From Chitinophagaceae bacterium (GTDB lineage: Bacteria; Bacteroidota; Bacteroidia; Chitinophagales; Chitinophagaceae), in NCBI GenBank assembly GCA_004028765.1, contig SAIX01000056.1, positions 1-64,000 on the forward strand: a stretch of 64,000 bases of DNA, written 5' to 3'. The notes below the pieces were generated by a model that did no database searches, was not told where the DNA came from, and saw only the letters and a list, made by a program, of their open reading frames with translations. Of this stretch, positions 51,231 through 57,829 are shown piece by piece. Position 1 is the first letter of the stretch, and each line of letters starts with the position of its first letter. The translations under genes were made by a program, and so were the position numbers.

Positions 51231-51334
51231 TTTCAAATTACATCTGTAAAAAAAGAACCTTCTGATTATGTCAGGCGGTTTTATTTTAACAATTCTGCTG
51301 AAAATATTTTTGCGGGTTTTTCATTTTATCTATT

Positions 51335-51353
51335 TACTTTGTATTTCAAAGTA
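51335..51353. promoter_or_regulatory. Palindromic operator before the seven-gene membrane operon
   Basis: TACTTTG-TATTT-CAAAGTA, two perfect 7-bp arms with a 5-bp spacer, ends 6 nt before the ATG at 51360. It overlaps a TTACTTTG -7-like box, so a bound dimer would block transcription. The winged-helix regulator encoded second in the operon is the natural candidate to bind here. Confidence 0.7.
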
Positions 51354-51359
51354 CTTTTT

Positions 51360-51992
51360 ATGGAAGAAAGAAACAGTCACCTTGATACACTGAACGATAT
51401 CCGGCAGATGATGGAGCGAAGCAGCCGTTTTATCAGTCTGAGCGGGCTGAGCGGCATCGGCGCGGGGTTTTGTGCATTGGGGGGTGCTTTCTTCACCTGG
51501 CGGATGATCGAATCCGAAAAAGCGAGGGGTTTCAACTACCGCCAGCTGGTTTTCGAAACCGGCAGTGAGCTGCAGCAAACATTGCTGCTGACAGGCGCCC
51601 TTACTTTTTCTGCTGCATTACTGGTGGCTTTTGTTTTTACGTATATCCGGAGTGTTAAAACAAATACGCCCATCTGGGGGGCCAGTTCAAAGCGCCTGCT
51701 CTGGAATACCATGATCCCCCTGTTGGTGGGCGGTGTGTTTGTGATCCGCATTTTACAATGGGGCTATGGCGGGATGATAGCGCCGGCCTGTTTGTTATTT
51801 TATGGGTTGGCACTGATCAATGGGAGCAAATACACATTATCAGAAATACGCTGGCTGGGTTTCAGCGAGATATTATTAGGTATTATCAATCTCTGGATGA
51901 TCGGCTACGGGCTGGTATTCTGGACGATCGGGTTTGGGTTGTTACATATTCTTTACGGCGCTATTATGTGGTGGAAATACGAACGGGCCTGA
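51360..51992 (+). CDS. Six-helix membrane protein of unknown function
   Basis: 210 aa from the ATG at 51360; a TTG at 51339 is open too but lies in the operator. A soluble N-terminal stretch (DTLNDIRQMMERSSRFISLS) leads to about six membrane helices. Proteins like this are often found directly upstream of a winged-helix regulator in Bacteroidota, which suggests a regulatory membrane partner or a target of that regulator. First gene of an operon that continues to 54410; the next start is 11 nt downstream. Confidence 0.8.
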   Translation: MEERNSHLDTLNDIRQMMERSSRFISLSGLSGIGAGFCALGGAFFTWRMIESEKARGFNYRQLVFETGSELQQTLLLTGALTFSAALLVAFVFTYIRSVKTNTPIWGASSKRLLWNTMIPLLVGGVFVIRILQWGYGGMIAPACLLFYGLALINGSKYTLSEIRWLGFSEILLGIINLWMIGYGLVFWTIGFGLLHILYGAIMWWKYERA

Positions 51993-52003
51993 AAAATACA
52001 AAC

Positions 52004-52303
52004 ATGAAGAACCCGATCGAACATCTGAACAAGGTTTTTGACAGCCGCGTACGCCTCGGTATCATGAGCGCCGTGCTAGTGAATGAAGAAGTAAACTTCA
52101 ATGACCTGAAGGACCTGATACAGGTAACCGATGGCAATCTCGCTTCCCACCTGAAAACGCTCGAAGAAAATAATTATATCAGGGTAAAGAAGGGGTTCAT
52201 CGGCAGAAAAACGAATACCACGTATCTCGTTACCAAAGCCGGTGAAAAAGCTTTCAAAGCGCACCTCGAGGCACTTGAACAAATGATCAGAAAAATTCAG
52301 TAA
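52004..52303 (+). CDS. Winged-helix transcriptional regulator (MarR/HTH_34-like)
   Basis: 99 aa from the ATG at 52004; the frame is open far upstream inside the previous gene but the domain starts here. VFDSRVRLGIMSAVLVNEEVNFNDLKDLIQVTDGNLASHLKTLEENNYIRVKKGFIGRKTNTTYLVTK-type order (helix-turn-helix at about 33-56, beta wing at 58-75) is the one-domain winged helix found beside small membrane proteins in Bacteroidota. It likely binds the palindrome at 51335 as a dimer. Its stop shares one base with the next ATG (TAATG). Confidence 0.9.
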   Translation: MKNPIEHLNKVFDSRVRLGIMSAVLVNEEVNFNDLKDLIQVTDGNLASHLKTLEENNYIRVKKGFIGRKTNTTYLVTKAGEKAFKAHLEALEQMIRKIQ

Positions 52304-52695
52304 TGCTGTTCAATATCTGTATACGATTGTATCTTTTTTCAATGGCGGTATATGCAGGCCTTACCACTCCCTGCCTCCTGATTCCGCCAATGTATATTGA
52401 ATCACTCAAACTGGCCCTGGTTTTTGGATCCTGTGCTGTCTTATTTTTCACAGGCTTACTCTGGGGTATTTCTTTTTACAGGATTTCATGGCATATTCAG
52501 TTCAGGCTGCTGTATGCAGCAGTGGGTATTACAGTTCTTACCAGTTTTCAATTGATCACATGGACTGGATGGTTGGGTGAGATCTGGGGTGAGCCGATAT
52601 TCCTCGCGTTTCCTTTTGCAGCAGCACTCGTGGGATGTTTTTCGGTTTATTATCACAGAAAACAAATTATCGAATACCTCGAAAGCAAAGCATGA
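52303..52695 (+). CDS. Four-helix membrane protein of unknown function
   Basis: 130 aa with about four hydrophobic helices (e.g. LALVFGSCAVLFFTGLLWG, FLAFPFAAALVGCFSVYY) and a short basic/acidic tail. Not recognised. Translationally coupled on both sides: TAATG with the regulator and ATGA with the Coq4-like gene. Confidence 0.75.
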   Translation: MLFNICIRLYLFSMAVYAGLTTPCLLIPPMYIESLKLALVFGSCAVLFFTGLLWGISFYRISWHIQFRLLYAAVGITVLTSFQLITWTGWLGEIWGEPIFLAFPFAAALVGCFSVYYHRKQIIEYLESKA

Positions 52696-53180
52696 AAAAA
52701 ACACTGCAACATATAAGATGCGCCTGCCTGGTTGCATTAACACATCACGCTGCATTACCCGCATTAAGGTACCTGCGGAAAGCAAAGCCTTTTCCTTATT
52801 CCAGTGAAGCATTGCTGCAAATGGAAAAAGGAACAGTTGGAAATGACCTTGCCTTGTTTTTGGGAGAGAAAAAGCTCAGGTTGCTTTCGCATTATGCACG
52901 GCATGATATGAAACATGTGGTGCTGGGTTTTGATACAACAGAAGAAGGGGAACTCTGCCTGCAATCATTTATGCTGGGTAACGGGCGGTTTTCTTTCCCG
53001 GTGATCGCAACGGTTGTATTCGGCTTGTTGCTGGCACCGGATCACTGGAAAAAAATGCTGGCCAGTTACCGCCATGGTAAACAATGTATCGCCATTCACC
53101 GATGGAACTGGTATACGCTTGTAACCCAGAGAACGGAAACGGTCAGGAATCAAATTTATCAAAAAAATCAAGTCACGTGA
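52692..53180 (+). CDS. Coq4-family-like protein with an intact HDxxH-x11-E metal motif
   Basis: 162 aa from the ATG at 52692. YARHDMKHVVLGFDTTEEGE places His71, Asp72, His75 and Glu87 exactly in the HDxxH-x11-E pattern of Coq4, including the neighbouring G-x-x-T-x-x-G-E-x-x-L and, after it, a G-x-x-x-x-x-P turn and a C-terminal W-x-Y-x-x helix. Coq4 acts in ubiquinone synthesis (removal/hydroxylation at C1 of the ring) in eukaryotes and proteobacteria. This lineage should make only menaquinone, so the job must be different or new. It is shorter than typical Coq4 (about 220 aa or more). Coupled to both neighbours (ATGA, GTGA overlaps). Confidence 0.7.
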   Translation: MKKTLQHIRCACLVALTHHAALPALRYLRKAKPFPYSSEALLQMEKGTVGNDLALFLGEKKLRLLSHYARHDMKHVVLGFDTTEEGELCLQSFMLGNGRFSFPVIATVVFGLLLAPDHWKKMLASYRHGKQCIAIHRWNWYTLVTQRTETVRNQIYQKNQVT

Positions 53181-53398
53181 ACTGGTTTAAACCCTTTGGC
53201 ATCCTCTACCTGCCTGTAAAAGCAGAAGGCTATCTTATTTCATTGCTCGCTGTCGTTTTTATGATACCGGTTTGTACTGCCGTGATCCGTAACGGGCATT
53301 CCGTATCCGATGACCTTTATCAAATATTTGTATATGGCACCTGCATTGCATTCTGGTGGAAATGGGTCGCAGAAAAAACTTCAATCAAAAAAACATGA
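53177..53398 (+). CDS. Small two-helix membrane protein
   Basis: 73 aa starting at a GTG (53177) that overlaps the upstream stop as GTGA; earlier in-frame ATGs (53084, 53102) lie well inside the Coq4-like gene. Two membrane helices (YLISLLAVVFMIPVCTAVI and LYQIFVYGTCIAFWWKWV). Not recognised. Its stop overlaps the next start as ATGA. Confidence 0.65.
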   Translation: MNWFKPFGILYLPVKAEGYLISLLAVVFMIPVCTAVIRNGHSVSDDLYQIFVYGTCIAFWWKWVAEKTSIKKT

Positions 53399-53757
53399 AC
53401 AGGCAACCCTTATTCAAAGCTTTCGGGCATGCTTTTAACGGGTTATCCCGTTTTATCCGCACAGACCGCAACGGCAGGATCCATTTCAGCATCTCGTTGC
53501 TGGTTTGCATTGCAGGGTTTTATTTCCGGATTTCGCATACCGAATGGATGCTGCTGCTGCTATGTTTCCCGGTAGTACTCGGGCTTGAAATGATGAACCA
53601 TGCCATCGAAAAACTCTGCGACACTGTTCACCCCGGGCAGCACCCTTATATTAAAACGGTAAAAGATGTAGCCGCAGCGGGTGTGTTGTTTGCTTCCATC
53701 ATTGCCTCCGTGATCGGATGTATTGTATTCATTCCAAAAATTCTTCTGTTAGTATGA
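53395..53757 (+). CDS. DgkA-family lipid kinase (diacylglycerol/undecaprenol kinase)
   Basis: 120 aa from the ATG at 53395. Three membrane helices and family motifs: AFNGLSRFIRTDRNGRIH at the N-terminus, LGLEMMNHAIEKLCDTV with the catalytic/metal glutamate, and IKTVKDVAAAGVLFASI. Gram-positive members phosphorylate undecaprenol, enterobacterial ones diacylglycerol; which applies here cannot be told. It recycles a lipid alcohol at the inner membrane. Coupled upstream and downstream by ATGA overlaps. Confidence 0.88.
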   Translation: MNRQPLFKAFGHAFNGLSRFIRTDRNGRIHFSISLLVCIAGFYFRISHTEWMLLLLCFPVVLGLEMMNHAIEKLCDTVHPGQHPYIKTVKDVAAAGVLFASIIASVIGCIVFIPKILLLV

Positions 53758-54410
53758 TATCGAAAATTTCTTCGACGGGTAAAATGTTATTGCTTTCTGT
53801 TGCCTTTTCCATGTGTTTACTGTTATTCCGTTTCTGGTATTCGGGAACGTTGGCTTATGGATTTTATATCTGGAACACTTTTCTGGCACTGATACCCTAT
53901 TGGTGCAGTATCGGTTTAGGGAAAATGAAAAAACCAAACCTGGCTGCTCTTTTCCTTGGCATAACCTGGCTCCTGTTTCTCCCCAACGCGCCATACCTGA
54001 TCACTGATATGCTGCATTATGAAGAAAGCAGTACCGCTCCCTATTGGTACGATATTTTTATCGTGATCACTGCAGCATGGAACGGGATAGCGCTCGGGTT
54101 AATTTCACTGATGAATATTGAGAAATTCCTCGCAAAACACCTCTCGCCAAAATGGGTAACGGTTTCTGTTTTTCTCAGTCTATTACTATGCAGCTACGGC
54201 GTTTTTATCGGCAGGTTTAACCGCTTTAACAGCTGGGATATTTTTACAAAACCTTTCGAATTATTCTGGACCTCCGCACATCATATCCTTTTACCGAATC
54301 TTTATCCGAAAGCCTGGGCGTTCACGCTTATCTGTTCCATTCTTCTATCACTTGTATATTTTACGCTGAAAAAAATTTCCATTCAGTATTCCGATCAACC
54401 TAAAGCATAA
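53754..54410 (+). CDS. DUF1361 integral membrane protein
   Basis: 218 aa from the ATG at 53754 (ATGA overlap with the kinase gene). About six membrane helices with the family signature WLLFLPNAPYLITDMLHY and FIGRFNRFNSWDIFTKP. DUF1361 proteins have no established function. Last gene of the operon; a terminator follows at once. Confidence 0.85.
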   Translation: MISKISSTGKMLLLSVAFSMCLLLFRFWYSGTLAYGFYIWNTFLALIPYWCSIGLGKMKKPNLAALFLGITWLLFLPNAPYLITDMLHYEESSTAPYWYDIFIVITAAWNGIALGLISLMNIEKFLAKHLSPKWVTVSVFLSLLLCSYGVFIGRFNRFNSWDIFTKPFELFWTSAHHILLPNLYPKAWAFTLICSILLSLVYFTLKKISIQYSDQPKA

Positions 54411-54446
54411 AAAAATGCCTCAGCCAATTGGTTGAGGCATTTTTTC
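54410..54446. terminator. Bidirectional terminator closing the operon
   Basis: AAAAATGCCTCAGCCAA / TTGGTTGAGGCATTTTT, near-perfect 17-bp arms with one G-T wobble, flanked by A and T tracts; 17 nt from the stop of the convergent giant gene. Confidence 0.9.
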
Positions 54447-54463: not shown

Positions 54464-57400
54464 TCAGAAATCAAACCCAAGTGCAAAATACCAAACCGGT
54501 TTTCCTACAAATACACCTTTCATCGGCCAGCCTGCATCGAGTTTCATAAAATAACCAAGCAGCGTGCTGCGGATACCAAAACCATAACCACCGGCAAACG
54601 GACCGAGCCCACCTGCATCGAGGCGTACTAGGATATTATTTCCATAGATCACTTCACTGGGCCTGGTTATTCCATTGTATTTTCCATTCCATGCCGAACC
54701 CAGATCCACAAACTGCACCAGCTGGAAGTTTCGCAGGAAGGCATTATTGATGGGCCGGTTTATCAATGTTGAGAAAACCGGGAAACGGAATTCGCTGTTC
54801 AGCACAACGGCATTGTTACCGTTGGCGATATTCTGGTTATAGCCGCGCATATTCACCGCGAGCGATTGGAACGCATAGGTTTGATCGGCCGCTGGCTGGT
54901 TTCGGTTGAACTGAGGGCTGATCCATCCATCCACACCGCCGAGGTAATAAATGATTTTTTGTCCGCCCCATGAGAAATCACCGGCTGCACGTCCGGCCCA
55001 GATAAAGTTGCGGTAGATTTTATAATAATACCGTGCATCAAAACCAAGATTAAATGTCATCTTATTACCACCGGTGGCAGCGTTATACGATGAGGGCATA
55101 TTGGCGTCGAAATAGATCTTGTAACGCAAACCCACCCAGATGTTTTGTGTTGGTGTGATGGTATTATCGTGTACAAATTCAAGGTGCGATACAAAGTATT
55201 TTGTCAGTGTATCGGGATATTTCAATGCATTCTGGTTAGGCAGGCCGGCATTGTTATCAAAGGAGCGGAGAACACCTCTGTCAGTACGGTAGCCCACTGT
55301 TGCACGCAGGCTTTTCACTTCATTAAAAGGATAACTGATATTCACCTGGTACAGGTTGGTGTACAGCATCGTATTGAAGGAAGTGTTGAAGAAATTGCTG
55401 ACATTGCTCCTGTAATAGGTAAGTCCCCAATCCACGCGCCTGCGAAGGTTCTGATAGGTAAAGAACACATCTTTATCGCTGAGGTTGGTGCCAAAGCGGA
55501 TACCGCCCACAAATTTCTGGTCTTCCATCAGGTCGCTGGTGCCTACACGAAAGGTGAAATTAAAATCGTTCCCGTTATTCAGTTGAATCGGGCCATTCCC
55601 CCCGCCGTAAGGCTGGTAACGGTTGATGAGGATATTATTGGTAAAGCCCACCAGCGCATAATCTGAACTGAATTTTAAGCGATAATCAAAGAGCCGCGAT
55701 TTACTGAGTGAAGAAGGTTTAAAAACATTGTTATCTGCCTTTGCCTGTACAGCCGCACTGCTGTCGGGTTTTTCATCGGCAAATTCGTTCTGGAAAAAAT
55801 CCTTTGGTTTTTTGGTGGAGTCGGCAACAGCTTTCTTGTTATAAAATGTTGCTTTACCGTCGACCGCTTTTTTCTCTGCCACCTGTTTTTTCATGTATTC
55901 CGATGGGCGGGCATTTACATTTCTTTTTGCAAGCGCCTGCTCATCCACTTTCAGTTTGTATAAAAATTTAAAATCTCCCTCCTGCCGTACTTCACTCACC
56001 GTACCGTTATTTCCTGCGATCCTGGTTTCGATCAGGCTGCTCTGGTAATTGGTGATCGGAAAAGTGTAGGTAGAATCTTTATATACCTGGAAATAACTTA
56101 CGCTGTCCGGCTCAGGTTTCTGCCAGGCACGAAGTGTGGAATCAAATTCTTTTACGGAAGGATTGCGCAGCAATTCATCCCCGATATAATACAAGGTATC
56201 AAGCCCGTTGCGCTGTGTAGAGAAGAAACCTGCCCAGCGGTTACCGATGCCATTCTCATCCGAAACAAAAGTGAAGTGATTGGTATTATACTGCATCGGG
56301 TAACGGGCATTGCCGTTCTTCATATCGGTCAGCTTTGCAAGTTGCTTTTTCTTGCTGTCGTTAAAAATGTCAACGATATAAATATTGAAGCGGTTCCTTC
56401 CGGGTAAAACGGTATCGGTATCGGGGGCTTCCGGGTTAGGCCGGTTTGAGGAATAAATAATACCGGAACGATTGGGGAATGAAACAAATGTAGGATCCAG
56501 GTCATCATACACATCATTGGTGATCTGTGTGAGTTTGTTTTCTTCGATCTTATAAGTGAAGATATCTGAGTGACCGTTCTTCACGGCGCTCATCACCACC
56601 GTATTGGCATCAAGCATAAATGAAGCATCAAGCACCTGTTCAACTCCCTCGATCTCCTGTTTGTATCTTTTGAATTTCGCAAGGATATCGTACACAAACA
56701 TTTTTATTTTGCCCATTTCCCAGTACACCACCAACAACCGGGTGCCTTTTCCATCCCATGCCATGATGGGATAATTGGGATTGATATCGCCCTGGTTGGT
56801 ACGCACACCGATTTTGAGCAGGGTTTTTTCGTCATAAAAATTCTCACGGAGTTTTACCGCATATTGCCCCTTTTTGAATTCGATCACCGAATACGTGGTG
56901 CTTTTCGGATTGGGATTTGCCTGGAAACGGAAATAATCATTTTTCGAAATGTCTTCCGAGATCACCATCTGCCCTTTGGGCTGGTTACGCCGCTGCCGTA
57001 TATCTTTTACATATACTTCCTGCTCGTACCGCATAAAATCCGCCAATACCTCTTTGAACTTTCTTTTACAAACCCGCAGGCATGCATTGTTCAGGTTTTT
57101 GTAGATACGGGCGAGGTATAAGAGATAGGTGATGTTTTCTTTCCGGTATTTTTCGCCGATATAATACCAGAATGCATGACCGGCCAGTACCGGCTTTTCA
57201 AATGCGAACTGGTAAAAAGAATTGTAGCGGCCGCCAAGGATCGCACTTTTGAGTTCATCATCTTTTTGGGTGCTCCATGCTTCGGCTGCATAAGAAACAT
57301 AGCCATCCACCAGCCATTTGGGAAGATCGAGCAATGCCTGGTTGCTGGCAAATTCACCGATATCATCCCCGAATAAAAGGTTATCCGTTAAAACCTTTGC

Positions 57401-57829
57401 AATTCCTTCACGGATCTGACGCTTGAGATGTTCATGGTTGCCATCAAAATAGGTTACGATCTTATTGTTCACCAATTTGGTGATACCACCCGAATTCTGC
57501 CAGTCGGCACCCAGCCCGATATTGGAACTCTTGTAATCATCGTAGCTGTTATACACCACGATATTGGCCCTGCGCTGTAACGAGTATTCAATAAAATTTT
57601 CGATGGAACGCAGTTCTTCTTCCGCCACCTGTGTAACAAATTTACCGAGCTCTACGCCTCCCTGTGCCACATAGGTATTGAAATTGGGCGACTGGTAAAA
57701 TTTCCACTGGAATTTTTTATGCTGGATCCGGTTTTTTCCGAATTCAACAGAATTTACCTGGGCGTTGGTAAGCCCGGGTAATAAAAAACCTGCCAACAGG
57801 AAGAAAGAAATAATTCTATTCACTTGCAT
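54464..57829 (-). CDS. Outer-membrane protein: degenerate peptidase domain, TolB-like propeller, C-terminal beta-barrel
   Basis: 1121 aa, exported (signal ending NAQ at about 24). Residues 30-280 look like a gluzincin peptidase-MA domain: the position of HExxH reads REGIA (140-144) and the downstream W-x-x-E-G site is LPKWLVDGYVSY (169-180), so zinc binding is lost. About 290-600 is a TolB/WD40-like propeller (e.g. SGIIYSSNRP, HFTFVSDENGIGN). Residues about 640-770 form a charged linker, and the rest (about 780-1121) is an outer-membrane barrel of the surface-antigen/Omp85 style (FKLDAGWPMKG, YFALGFDF ending in Phe). Annotated in relatives as TolB, which misses the other two parts. Role unknown; surface scaffolding or assembly is plausible. 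Confidence 0.8.
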   Translation of the reverse strand: MQVNRIISFFLLAGFLLPGLTNAQVNSVEFGKNRIQHKKFQWKFYQSPNFNTYVAQGGVELGKFVTQVAEEELRSIENFIEYSLQRRANIVVYNSYDDYKSSNIGLGADWQNSGGITKLVNNKIVTYFDGNHEHLKRQIREGIAKVLTDNLLFGDDIGEFASNQALLDLPKWLVDGYVSYAAEAWSTQKDDELKSAILGGRYNSFYQFAFEKPVLAGHAFWYYIGEKYRKENITYLLYLARIYKNLNNACLRVCKRKFKEVLADFMRYEQEVYVKDIRQRRNQPKGQMVISEDISKNDYFRFQANPNPKSTTYSVIEFKKGQYAVKLRENFYDEKTLLKIGVRTNQGDINPNYPIMAWDGKGTRLLVVYWEMGKIKMFVYDILAKFKRYKQEIEGVEQVLDASFMLDANTVVMSAVKNGHSDIFTYKIEENKLTQITNDVYDDLDPTFVSFPNRSGIIYSSNRPNPEAPDTDTVLPGRNRFNIYIVDIFNDSKKKQLAKLTDMKNGNARYPMQYNTNHFTFVSDENGIGNRWAGFFSTQRNGLDTLYYIGDELLRNPSVKEFDSTLRAWQKPEPDSVSYFQVYKDSTYTFPITNYQSSLIETRIAGNNGTVSEVRQEGDFKFLYKLKVDEQALAKRNVNARPSEYMKKQVAEKKAVDGKATFYNKKAVADSTKKPKDFFQNEFADEKPDSSAAVQAKADNNVFKPSSLSKSRLFDYRLKFSSDYALVGFTNNILINRYQPYGGGNGPIQLNNGNDFNFTFRVGTSDLMEDQKFVGGIRFGTNLSDKDVFFTYQNLRRRVDWGLTYYRSNVSNFFNTSFNTMLYTNLYQVNISYPFNEVKSLRATVGYRTDRGVLRSFDNNAGLPNQNALKYPDTLTKYFVSHLEFVHDNTITPTQNIWVGLRYKIYFDANMPSSYNAATGGNKMTFNLGFDARYYYKIYRNFIWAGRAAGDFSWGGQKIIYYLGGVDGWISPQFNRNQPAADQTYAFQSLAVNMRGYNQNIANGNNAVVLNSEFRFPVFSTLINRPINNAFLRNFQLVQFVDLGSAWNGKYNGITRPSEVIYGNNILVRLDAGGLGPFAGGYGFGIRSTLLGYFMKLDAGWPMKGVFVGKPVWYFALGFDF

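Follow-up and report, generated by a model that had tools for sequence, protein, structure and literature searches.

A probable autoregulated envelope-maintenance operon with a proposed palindromic operator in Bacteroidota

Why would a winged-helix regulator, a Coq4-like protein, a DgkA-family lipid kinase, and several membrane proteins be encoded in one tightly packed run of genes? This question is raised by contig SAIX01000056.1 of a Chitinophagaceae bacterium, of which the first 64,000 nucleotides (the window) were analyzed. A first-pass annotation of this DNA had read the seven genes as one regulated pathway, probably handling a membrane lipid or isoprenoid.

The seven-gene run

An ORF check of the window exactly confirmed the seven genes reported by the first-pass annotation, with their positions and overlaps; all lie on the + strand and span 51360–54410 (Table 1). 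From g1 to g7, the spacings are +11, −1 (TAATG), −4 (ATGA), −4 (GTGA), −4 (ATGA), and −4 (ATGA). A gene for a TerC protein lies 5′ of the run, and the neighboring 3′ gene is convergent. Judged from the sequence, the run looks like one transcription unit that includes its regulator. Pfam matches were obtained for g2 (HTH_34), g4 (Coq4), g6 (DAGK_prokar), and g7 (DUF1361), and no Pfam family was above its cut-off for g1, g3, or g5. Nearly all products of g1–g7 are membrane or lipid-binding proteins.

Table 1. Coordinates of the genes and proposed control elements in the window
Feature	Position	Strand	Description
g1	51360–51992	+	210 aa, membrane protein, proposed sensor or partner of g2
g2	52004–52303	+	99 aa, HTH_34 winged-helix regulator, bare DNA-binding domain
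g3	52303–52695	+	130 aa, membrane protein
g4	52692–53180	+	162 aa, Coq4-fold protein with zinc motif
g5	53177–53398	+	73 aa, small membrane protein, GTG start
g6	53395–53757	+	120 aa, DgkA-family lipid kinase
g7	53754–54410	+	218 aa, DUF1361 membrane protein
Candidate Bacteroidota-type −33 element TTTG	51309–51312	+	about 21–22 nt 5′ of the TACTTTG half-site
Palindrome, proposed g2 operator	51335–51353	no strand	left half may double as −7 box
Strong terminator-like hairpin	54410–54445	no strand	16 pairs and a T-run; common to the operon end and the convergent gene

A stable gene pair with variable cargo

The Coq4-like protein was found in 13 of 119 Chitinophagaceae genomes, 36 of 299 genomes of the order, and 29 of 395 genomes of the phylum, and the neighborhoods of these matches were retrieved and annotated. 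When genome contigs were scanned, 62 named loci emerged, the majority from Chitinophagaceae (Ferruginibacter, Lacibacter, Taibaiella, Edaphocola, and MAGs). A Coq4-like ORF was called in 59 of them; the same-strand run contained g2 in 48, g1 in 45, DgkA in 39, DUF1361 in 35, CreD in 27, and DUF4153 in 11, counts that include many broken-off contigs. We found the cluster again throughout the family and the order and in further families of the class, that is, outside close relatives, where the first-pass annotation had said that its absence would refute the proposal. Because g1, g2, the Coq4-like gene, DgkA, and DUF1361 recur jointly in dozens of further genomes, these comparisons indicate that their joint occurrence is beyond chance.

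Relatives of g1 were found in 82 of 119 Chitinophagaceae genomes and 136 of 395 genomes of the phylum, and are encoded beside g2 nearly always. When 20 Chitinophagaceae loci were chosen via g1, with Coq4 ignored, g2 was present in 16 of them and CreD, DgkA, and DUF1361 in 15 each, in every case within 8 kb downstream. In these loci, g1 and g2 often overlap by four bases or lie no more than 60 bases apart. Since g1 is far commoner than the Coq4-like gene, and from the contents of the g1-chosen loci, the surveys indicate that g1–g2 is the stable core, with CreD, DUF4153, DgkA, DUF1361, the Coq4-like protein (itself optional), and small membrane proteins as variable cargo. By the same surveys, the module is widespread across Bacteroidota, and the seven-gene run is one version of it. 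Thus, one apparent transcription unit with its regulator stands from the earlier proposal, but a fixed seven-gene pathway does not: only 13 Chitinophagaceae genomes carry the Coq4-like gene against 82 with g1, and both g3 and g5 are optional members.

No match to g1 was found in Pfam or NCBIfam, and its relatives show invariant motifs in two alignments. The model of g1 (pLDDT 80) shows an all-helical membrane protein and had no Foldseek match at an E-value of 0.001 or better; in VIA-align, its best structural match, among helical proteins, was weak (Z 6.8). As the matches from both programs were weak and to helical proteins only, homology of g1 to solved folds is not claimed. The regulator g2 matched PF13601 (HTH_34) above the cut-off, with 96.3 bits over positions 1–80 of the 80-position profile, and has a solved relative, PH1061 (1ub9). 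It agrees with HTH_34 regulators in domain and size, consisting of the winged helix alone with no ligand domain, but differs in being coupled to the membrane protein g1 and to a putative private operator.

The g3 gene occupies the slot where relatives have CreD or another small membrane protein. Relatives of g5 lie directly 5′ of DgkA in other genomes, and g5 is therefore probably a real gene. CreD is a common partner of the module in Chitinophagaceae, and Pfam confirmed both CreD (489 and 478 bits) and DUF4153 (145 and 128 bits) in representative relatives.

The palindrome and its distribution

A palindrome that the first-pass annotation did not mention, TACTTTGTATTTCAAAGTA, sits seven bases 5′ of the g1 start codon. 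No other match occurs in the window, and no other exact match in the bacterium's own genome. One near-site with a single mismatch was also seen in this genome, at G000:C49:16196. As g2 and g3 overlap and no second operator was found in the 64-kb window, the cargo here would have to be served by the first site or by read-through.

Of 51 named loci, 47 have the core pattern CTTTG-N5-CAAAG close to the g1 start, at a fixed place, and the palindrome also precedes g1 in most of the class, order, and g1-chosen loci. An alignment of 101 g1 upstream regions gave the wider consensus ACTTTG-N5-CAAAGT-N-CTTTT. In 74 of these regions, TTTG lies 25–28 nt before the CTTTG half-site, compared with at most four elsewhere among the positions listed. 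We take the upstream TTTG to be the candidate −33 box of a promoter whose −7 part overlaps the palindrome, an arrangement that fits the −33/−7 promoter of Bacteroidota. In relatives, a second copy of the palindrome is often found between g2 and the first cargo gene, which encodes CreD, DUF4153, a Coq4-like protein, or a small membrane protein. The upstream layout of this second site differs, with a T-tract, and the second site may therefore not work as a promoter-operator.

Strict sites numbered 152 in 1.64 Mb of module loci, where base composition predicts 0.16; these loci were picked around g1 or Coq4, so the enrichment tests the neighborhood and not whole genomes. Six genomes scanned whole contained only one to three exact sites apiece. 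As chance alone, gauged with the pattern read backwards, gave between zero and three matches in each genome, it is the positions of the sites, not their count, that are the evidence.

These positions were informative where regulon genes are not linked. In eight genomes of one genus from another family, probably Flavobacterium, the Coq4-like gene and g1–g2 are on separate contigs or megabases apart, and in all eight the operator lies 20–25 nt before the Coq4-like start codon; the genomes are closely related and do not count as eight independent events. Two of them were scanned whole, and each contained three exact sites, located at g1, at the cargo behind g2, and at the Coq4-like locus, which is 2.6 and 2.9 Mb away, respectively. 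In two Chitinophagaceae genomes, an additional exact site lies 5′ of a gene for a small membrane protein, alone or in a two-gene unit, and this protein is otherwise an operon member. In other genomes, the regulon also includes a permuted amidase, Peptidase_C92. At Coq4 paralogues that are longer and lie in other contexts (L059, L112, and L113), no operator site was found. From this distribution, the palindrome-linked genes very probably form one regulon, and we propose that the palindrome is an operator bound by g2. At the level of sequence comparison, the operon, the operator, and regulon membership are strongly supported.

A proposed role in envelope maintenance and alternative explanations

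The explanation that we favor for the locus, with fair confidence, is an autoregulated operon for envelope maintenance, in which g2 acts on the palindrome, g1 senses, and the cargo serves the envelope. We infer g2 to be the palindrome binder, as we do the direction of control, the sensing by g1, and the carrier-lipid target. In this mechanism, g2 would bind ACTTTG-N5-CAAAGT overlapping the likely −7 box and control g1–g2 together with the read-through cargo. The overlap of the operator with the −7 box suggests repression, so that g2 would repress its own promoter until g1 signals. Because g2 is a bare winged helix without a ligand domain, sensing is probably the task of g1, which would respond to a change in membrane state by releasing or holding g2.

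The cargo would be inner-membrane proteins that preserve the integrity of the envelope, here g6, g7, g3, g5, and g4, joined in most relatives by CreD or DUF4153. We regard a role in envelope maintenance as reasonably likely. The narrower reading, with the undecaprenyl carrier-lipid pool as a plausible target, is tentative and inclines to the doubtful side; the task of g6 would be to return undecaprenol (or diacylglycerol) to its phosphorylated form, and that of g4 to bind a polyprenyl lipid or modify it. In the literature, loss of CreD harms envelope integrity (PMC4689548); CreD rose more than 30-fold on sequestration of the carrier lipid, with a role in undecaprenyl recycling suggested by the authors (PMC12152626); and colicin M, which frees undecaprenol, strongly induces creD (PMC3599342). 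CreD (PF06123) had no match in the whole of the bacterium's own genome, and since the window is without CreD, the carrier-lipid link is indirect here.

The kinase g6 matched PF01219 (DAGK_prokar) with 108.8 bits and keeps the E-x2-N-x3-E and K-D residues, aligned with E. coli DgkA. It resembles DgkA and undecaprenol kinases (PF01219; 3ze3 and 2kdc) in length, profile, and catalytic residues, but is regulon-encoded and is the sole family member found in its own genome; its substrate may be undecaprenol, or g6 may simply be a common diacylglycerol kinase. The g7 protein matched PF07099 (DUF1361) with 135 bits.

One alternative is that g1–g2 is a plain autoregulatory pair, with membrane housekeeping genes trailing behind it, loosely attached and with no common role. 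The cargo does differ strongly between genomes, and a few g1–g2 pairs have no recognized cargo behind them (L208 and L211). However, the same few families recur from the family up to the class level, and loose attachment fails to explain the operator at distant Coq4-like and small membrane-protein loci. We therefore consider this alternative unlikely.

Another alternative, close to the first-pass proposal, is a biosynthetic pathway for a lipid or isoprenoid (quinone-like) compound: the Coq4-like protein would use zinc to act on a polyprenylated ring, and DgkA would phosphorylate one of the intermediates. The g4 protein scored 26.7 bits against PF05019 (Coq4; cut-off 22.9). Its model (pLDDT 91) had a Foldseek probability of 1.00 to 6e12 and 3msq, and aligned with 6e12 at Z 13.6 (rmsd 2.9, 133 aligned) and with 3msq at Z 12.6 (rmsd 4.3, 149 aligned). 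These two solved cyanobacterial Coq4 proteins were the sole matches, the next row, an unrelated one, having Z 2.7. The 6e12 structure holds a bound fatty acid according to its entry title. COQ4 is a zinc-dependent C1 decarboxylase that requires the motif HDxxH-x11-E (PMC7615680), which g4 keeps in full as H71, D72, H75, and E87, invariant across 49 sequences. We therefore read g4 as a zinc protein with the Coq4 fold that probably binds lipid. The g4 protein agrees with the Coq4 family (PF05019; Alr8543 6e12, 3msq, and human COQ4) in fold, profile, and this motif, but it is shorter, lies in an envelope operon, and comes from a genome in which no member of the ubiquinone hydroxylase family was found.

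That family, TIGR01988, the sole coenzyme Q pathway family tested, had no match in the 99.9% complete own genome, so a role of g4 in coenzyme Q synthesis is unlikely, and the quinone pathway was dropped as first choice. Bacteroidota use menaquinone. Moreover, the Coq4-like gene is missing from most genomes in which the remainder of the cluster is kept, and no further biosynthetic enzyme recurs in the cluster, which leaves a quinone-like pathway quite improbable. The earlier proposal of lipid or isoprenoid handling retains support in the products, nearly all membrane or lipid-binding, but not in a quinone role. Since the gene set is not fixed and a quinone role is unlikely, the run is better read as an envelope-protein regulon than as a single enzyme pathway.

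Alternatively, the palindrome could serve chiefly as a conserved promoter or leader element instead of a g2 site, which we hold to be very improbable: its left half resembles a Bacteroidota −7 box and, in most loci, 5–10 nt separate it from the start codon, but both half-sites are kept around a free 5-bp center, and a general element would precede hundreds of genes, whereas exact copies number one to three per genome, at regulon genes.

A bolder form of the envelope-maintenance explanation, which we hold to be rather doubtful, is a new Bacteroidota-wide envelope switch in which g1 would read a membrane lipid and directly control g2; its regulon would comprise two or three promoters driving CreD, DUF4153, DgkA, DUF1361, and a Coq4-fold zinc protein acting on a non-quinone polyprenyl lipid.

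Relation to known systems

The closest comparison is with CreBC-CreD of E. coli, Pseudomonas, and Stenotrophomonas, which is likewise an envelope-linked regulon; CreD is also a main target in relatives of the locus. Control there is by a two-component system, whereas here it would be by a bare winged helix beside a membrane protein: the regulator of the run is an HTH_34 protein, and neither a histidine kinase nor a response regulator is among g1–g7. The operator is also different, the module carries DgkA, DUF1361, DUF4153, and Coq4-like cargo, and the window is without CreD. By analogy, the module would function like CreBC-CreD, yet it is a different system.

The first-pass annotation knew of no described system with this gene set, and our literature search, with subscription journals mostly outside it, likewise found no description of the gene set, the operator, or the regulator. 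The search found nothing on CreD together with DUF4153, nor on an inner-membrane CreD in Flavobacterium, and yielded one unrelated paper only on DUF1361. The function of CreD is still termed elusive (PMC10943186).

With a single operator and a single small regulator, the proposal is easily tested. It offers a testable role for families without known function, namely g1, DUF1361, and DUF4153, and for the Coq4 fold outside the ubiquinone pathway. To our knowledge, few envelope-stress regulons are known in Bacteroidota; the module is a candidate for one and could help to clarify the function of CreD.

Coq4-like genes and their contexts

In locus L041, from a relative's genome, and in other loci of the same genus, the operator was found upstream of a gene encoding a Peptidase_C92 protein, and this gene is directly followed by the Coq4-like gene. 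A second, longer type of Coq4 paralogue (236-242 aa) was identified in L059, L112, and L113, where it lies in other gene contexts and the operator is absent. The genome of L112 encodes both the operator-linked and the longer type.

Occasional members and neighbors of the module

Several further genes were observed within individual loci. Within the module or close to it, some genomes carry genes for a B12-binding radical SAM protein and for a bacterial sugar transferase. In some genomes the operon also includes a calcineurin-like phosphoesterase, and in one family member DUF4153 is followed by a DUF6688 protein. Convergent to the window's operon lies the gene for a 1121-aa protein, which had no Pfam match; many relatives have kept this gene at the same place, often with a metallo-beta-lactamase-fold protein next after it.

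Coordinates of the additional features
Feature	Locus	Position	Strand
Peptidase_C92 (YaeF/YiiX-type permuted amidase)	L041	2035-2709	
B12-binding radical SAM protein / bacterial sugar transferase	L020	3985-5983	
B12-binding radical SAM protein / bacterial sugar transferase	L220		
Calcineurin-like phosphoesterase	L062	7101-7946	
Calcineurin-like phosphoesterase	L063	4858-5697	
DUF6688 protein	L110	8129-9208	
1121-aa protein	window	54464-57829	-
One-mismatch operator	G000:C49	16196-16214	

Operator-like sites and promoter layout

Elsewhere in the window's own genome (G000), a one-mismatch version of the operator was observed.

Upstream of the second operator copy, which follows g2 in L224, L246, L263, L057, and other loci, a conserved T-tract, TTTTTTTG, is located 10-16 bases 5' of the palindrome and takes the place of TTTG at -27. 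The promoter layout of the second copy thus differs from that of the first site, before g1.
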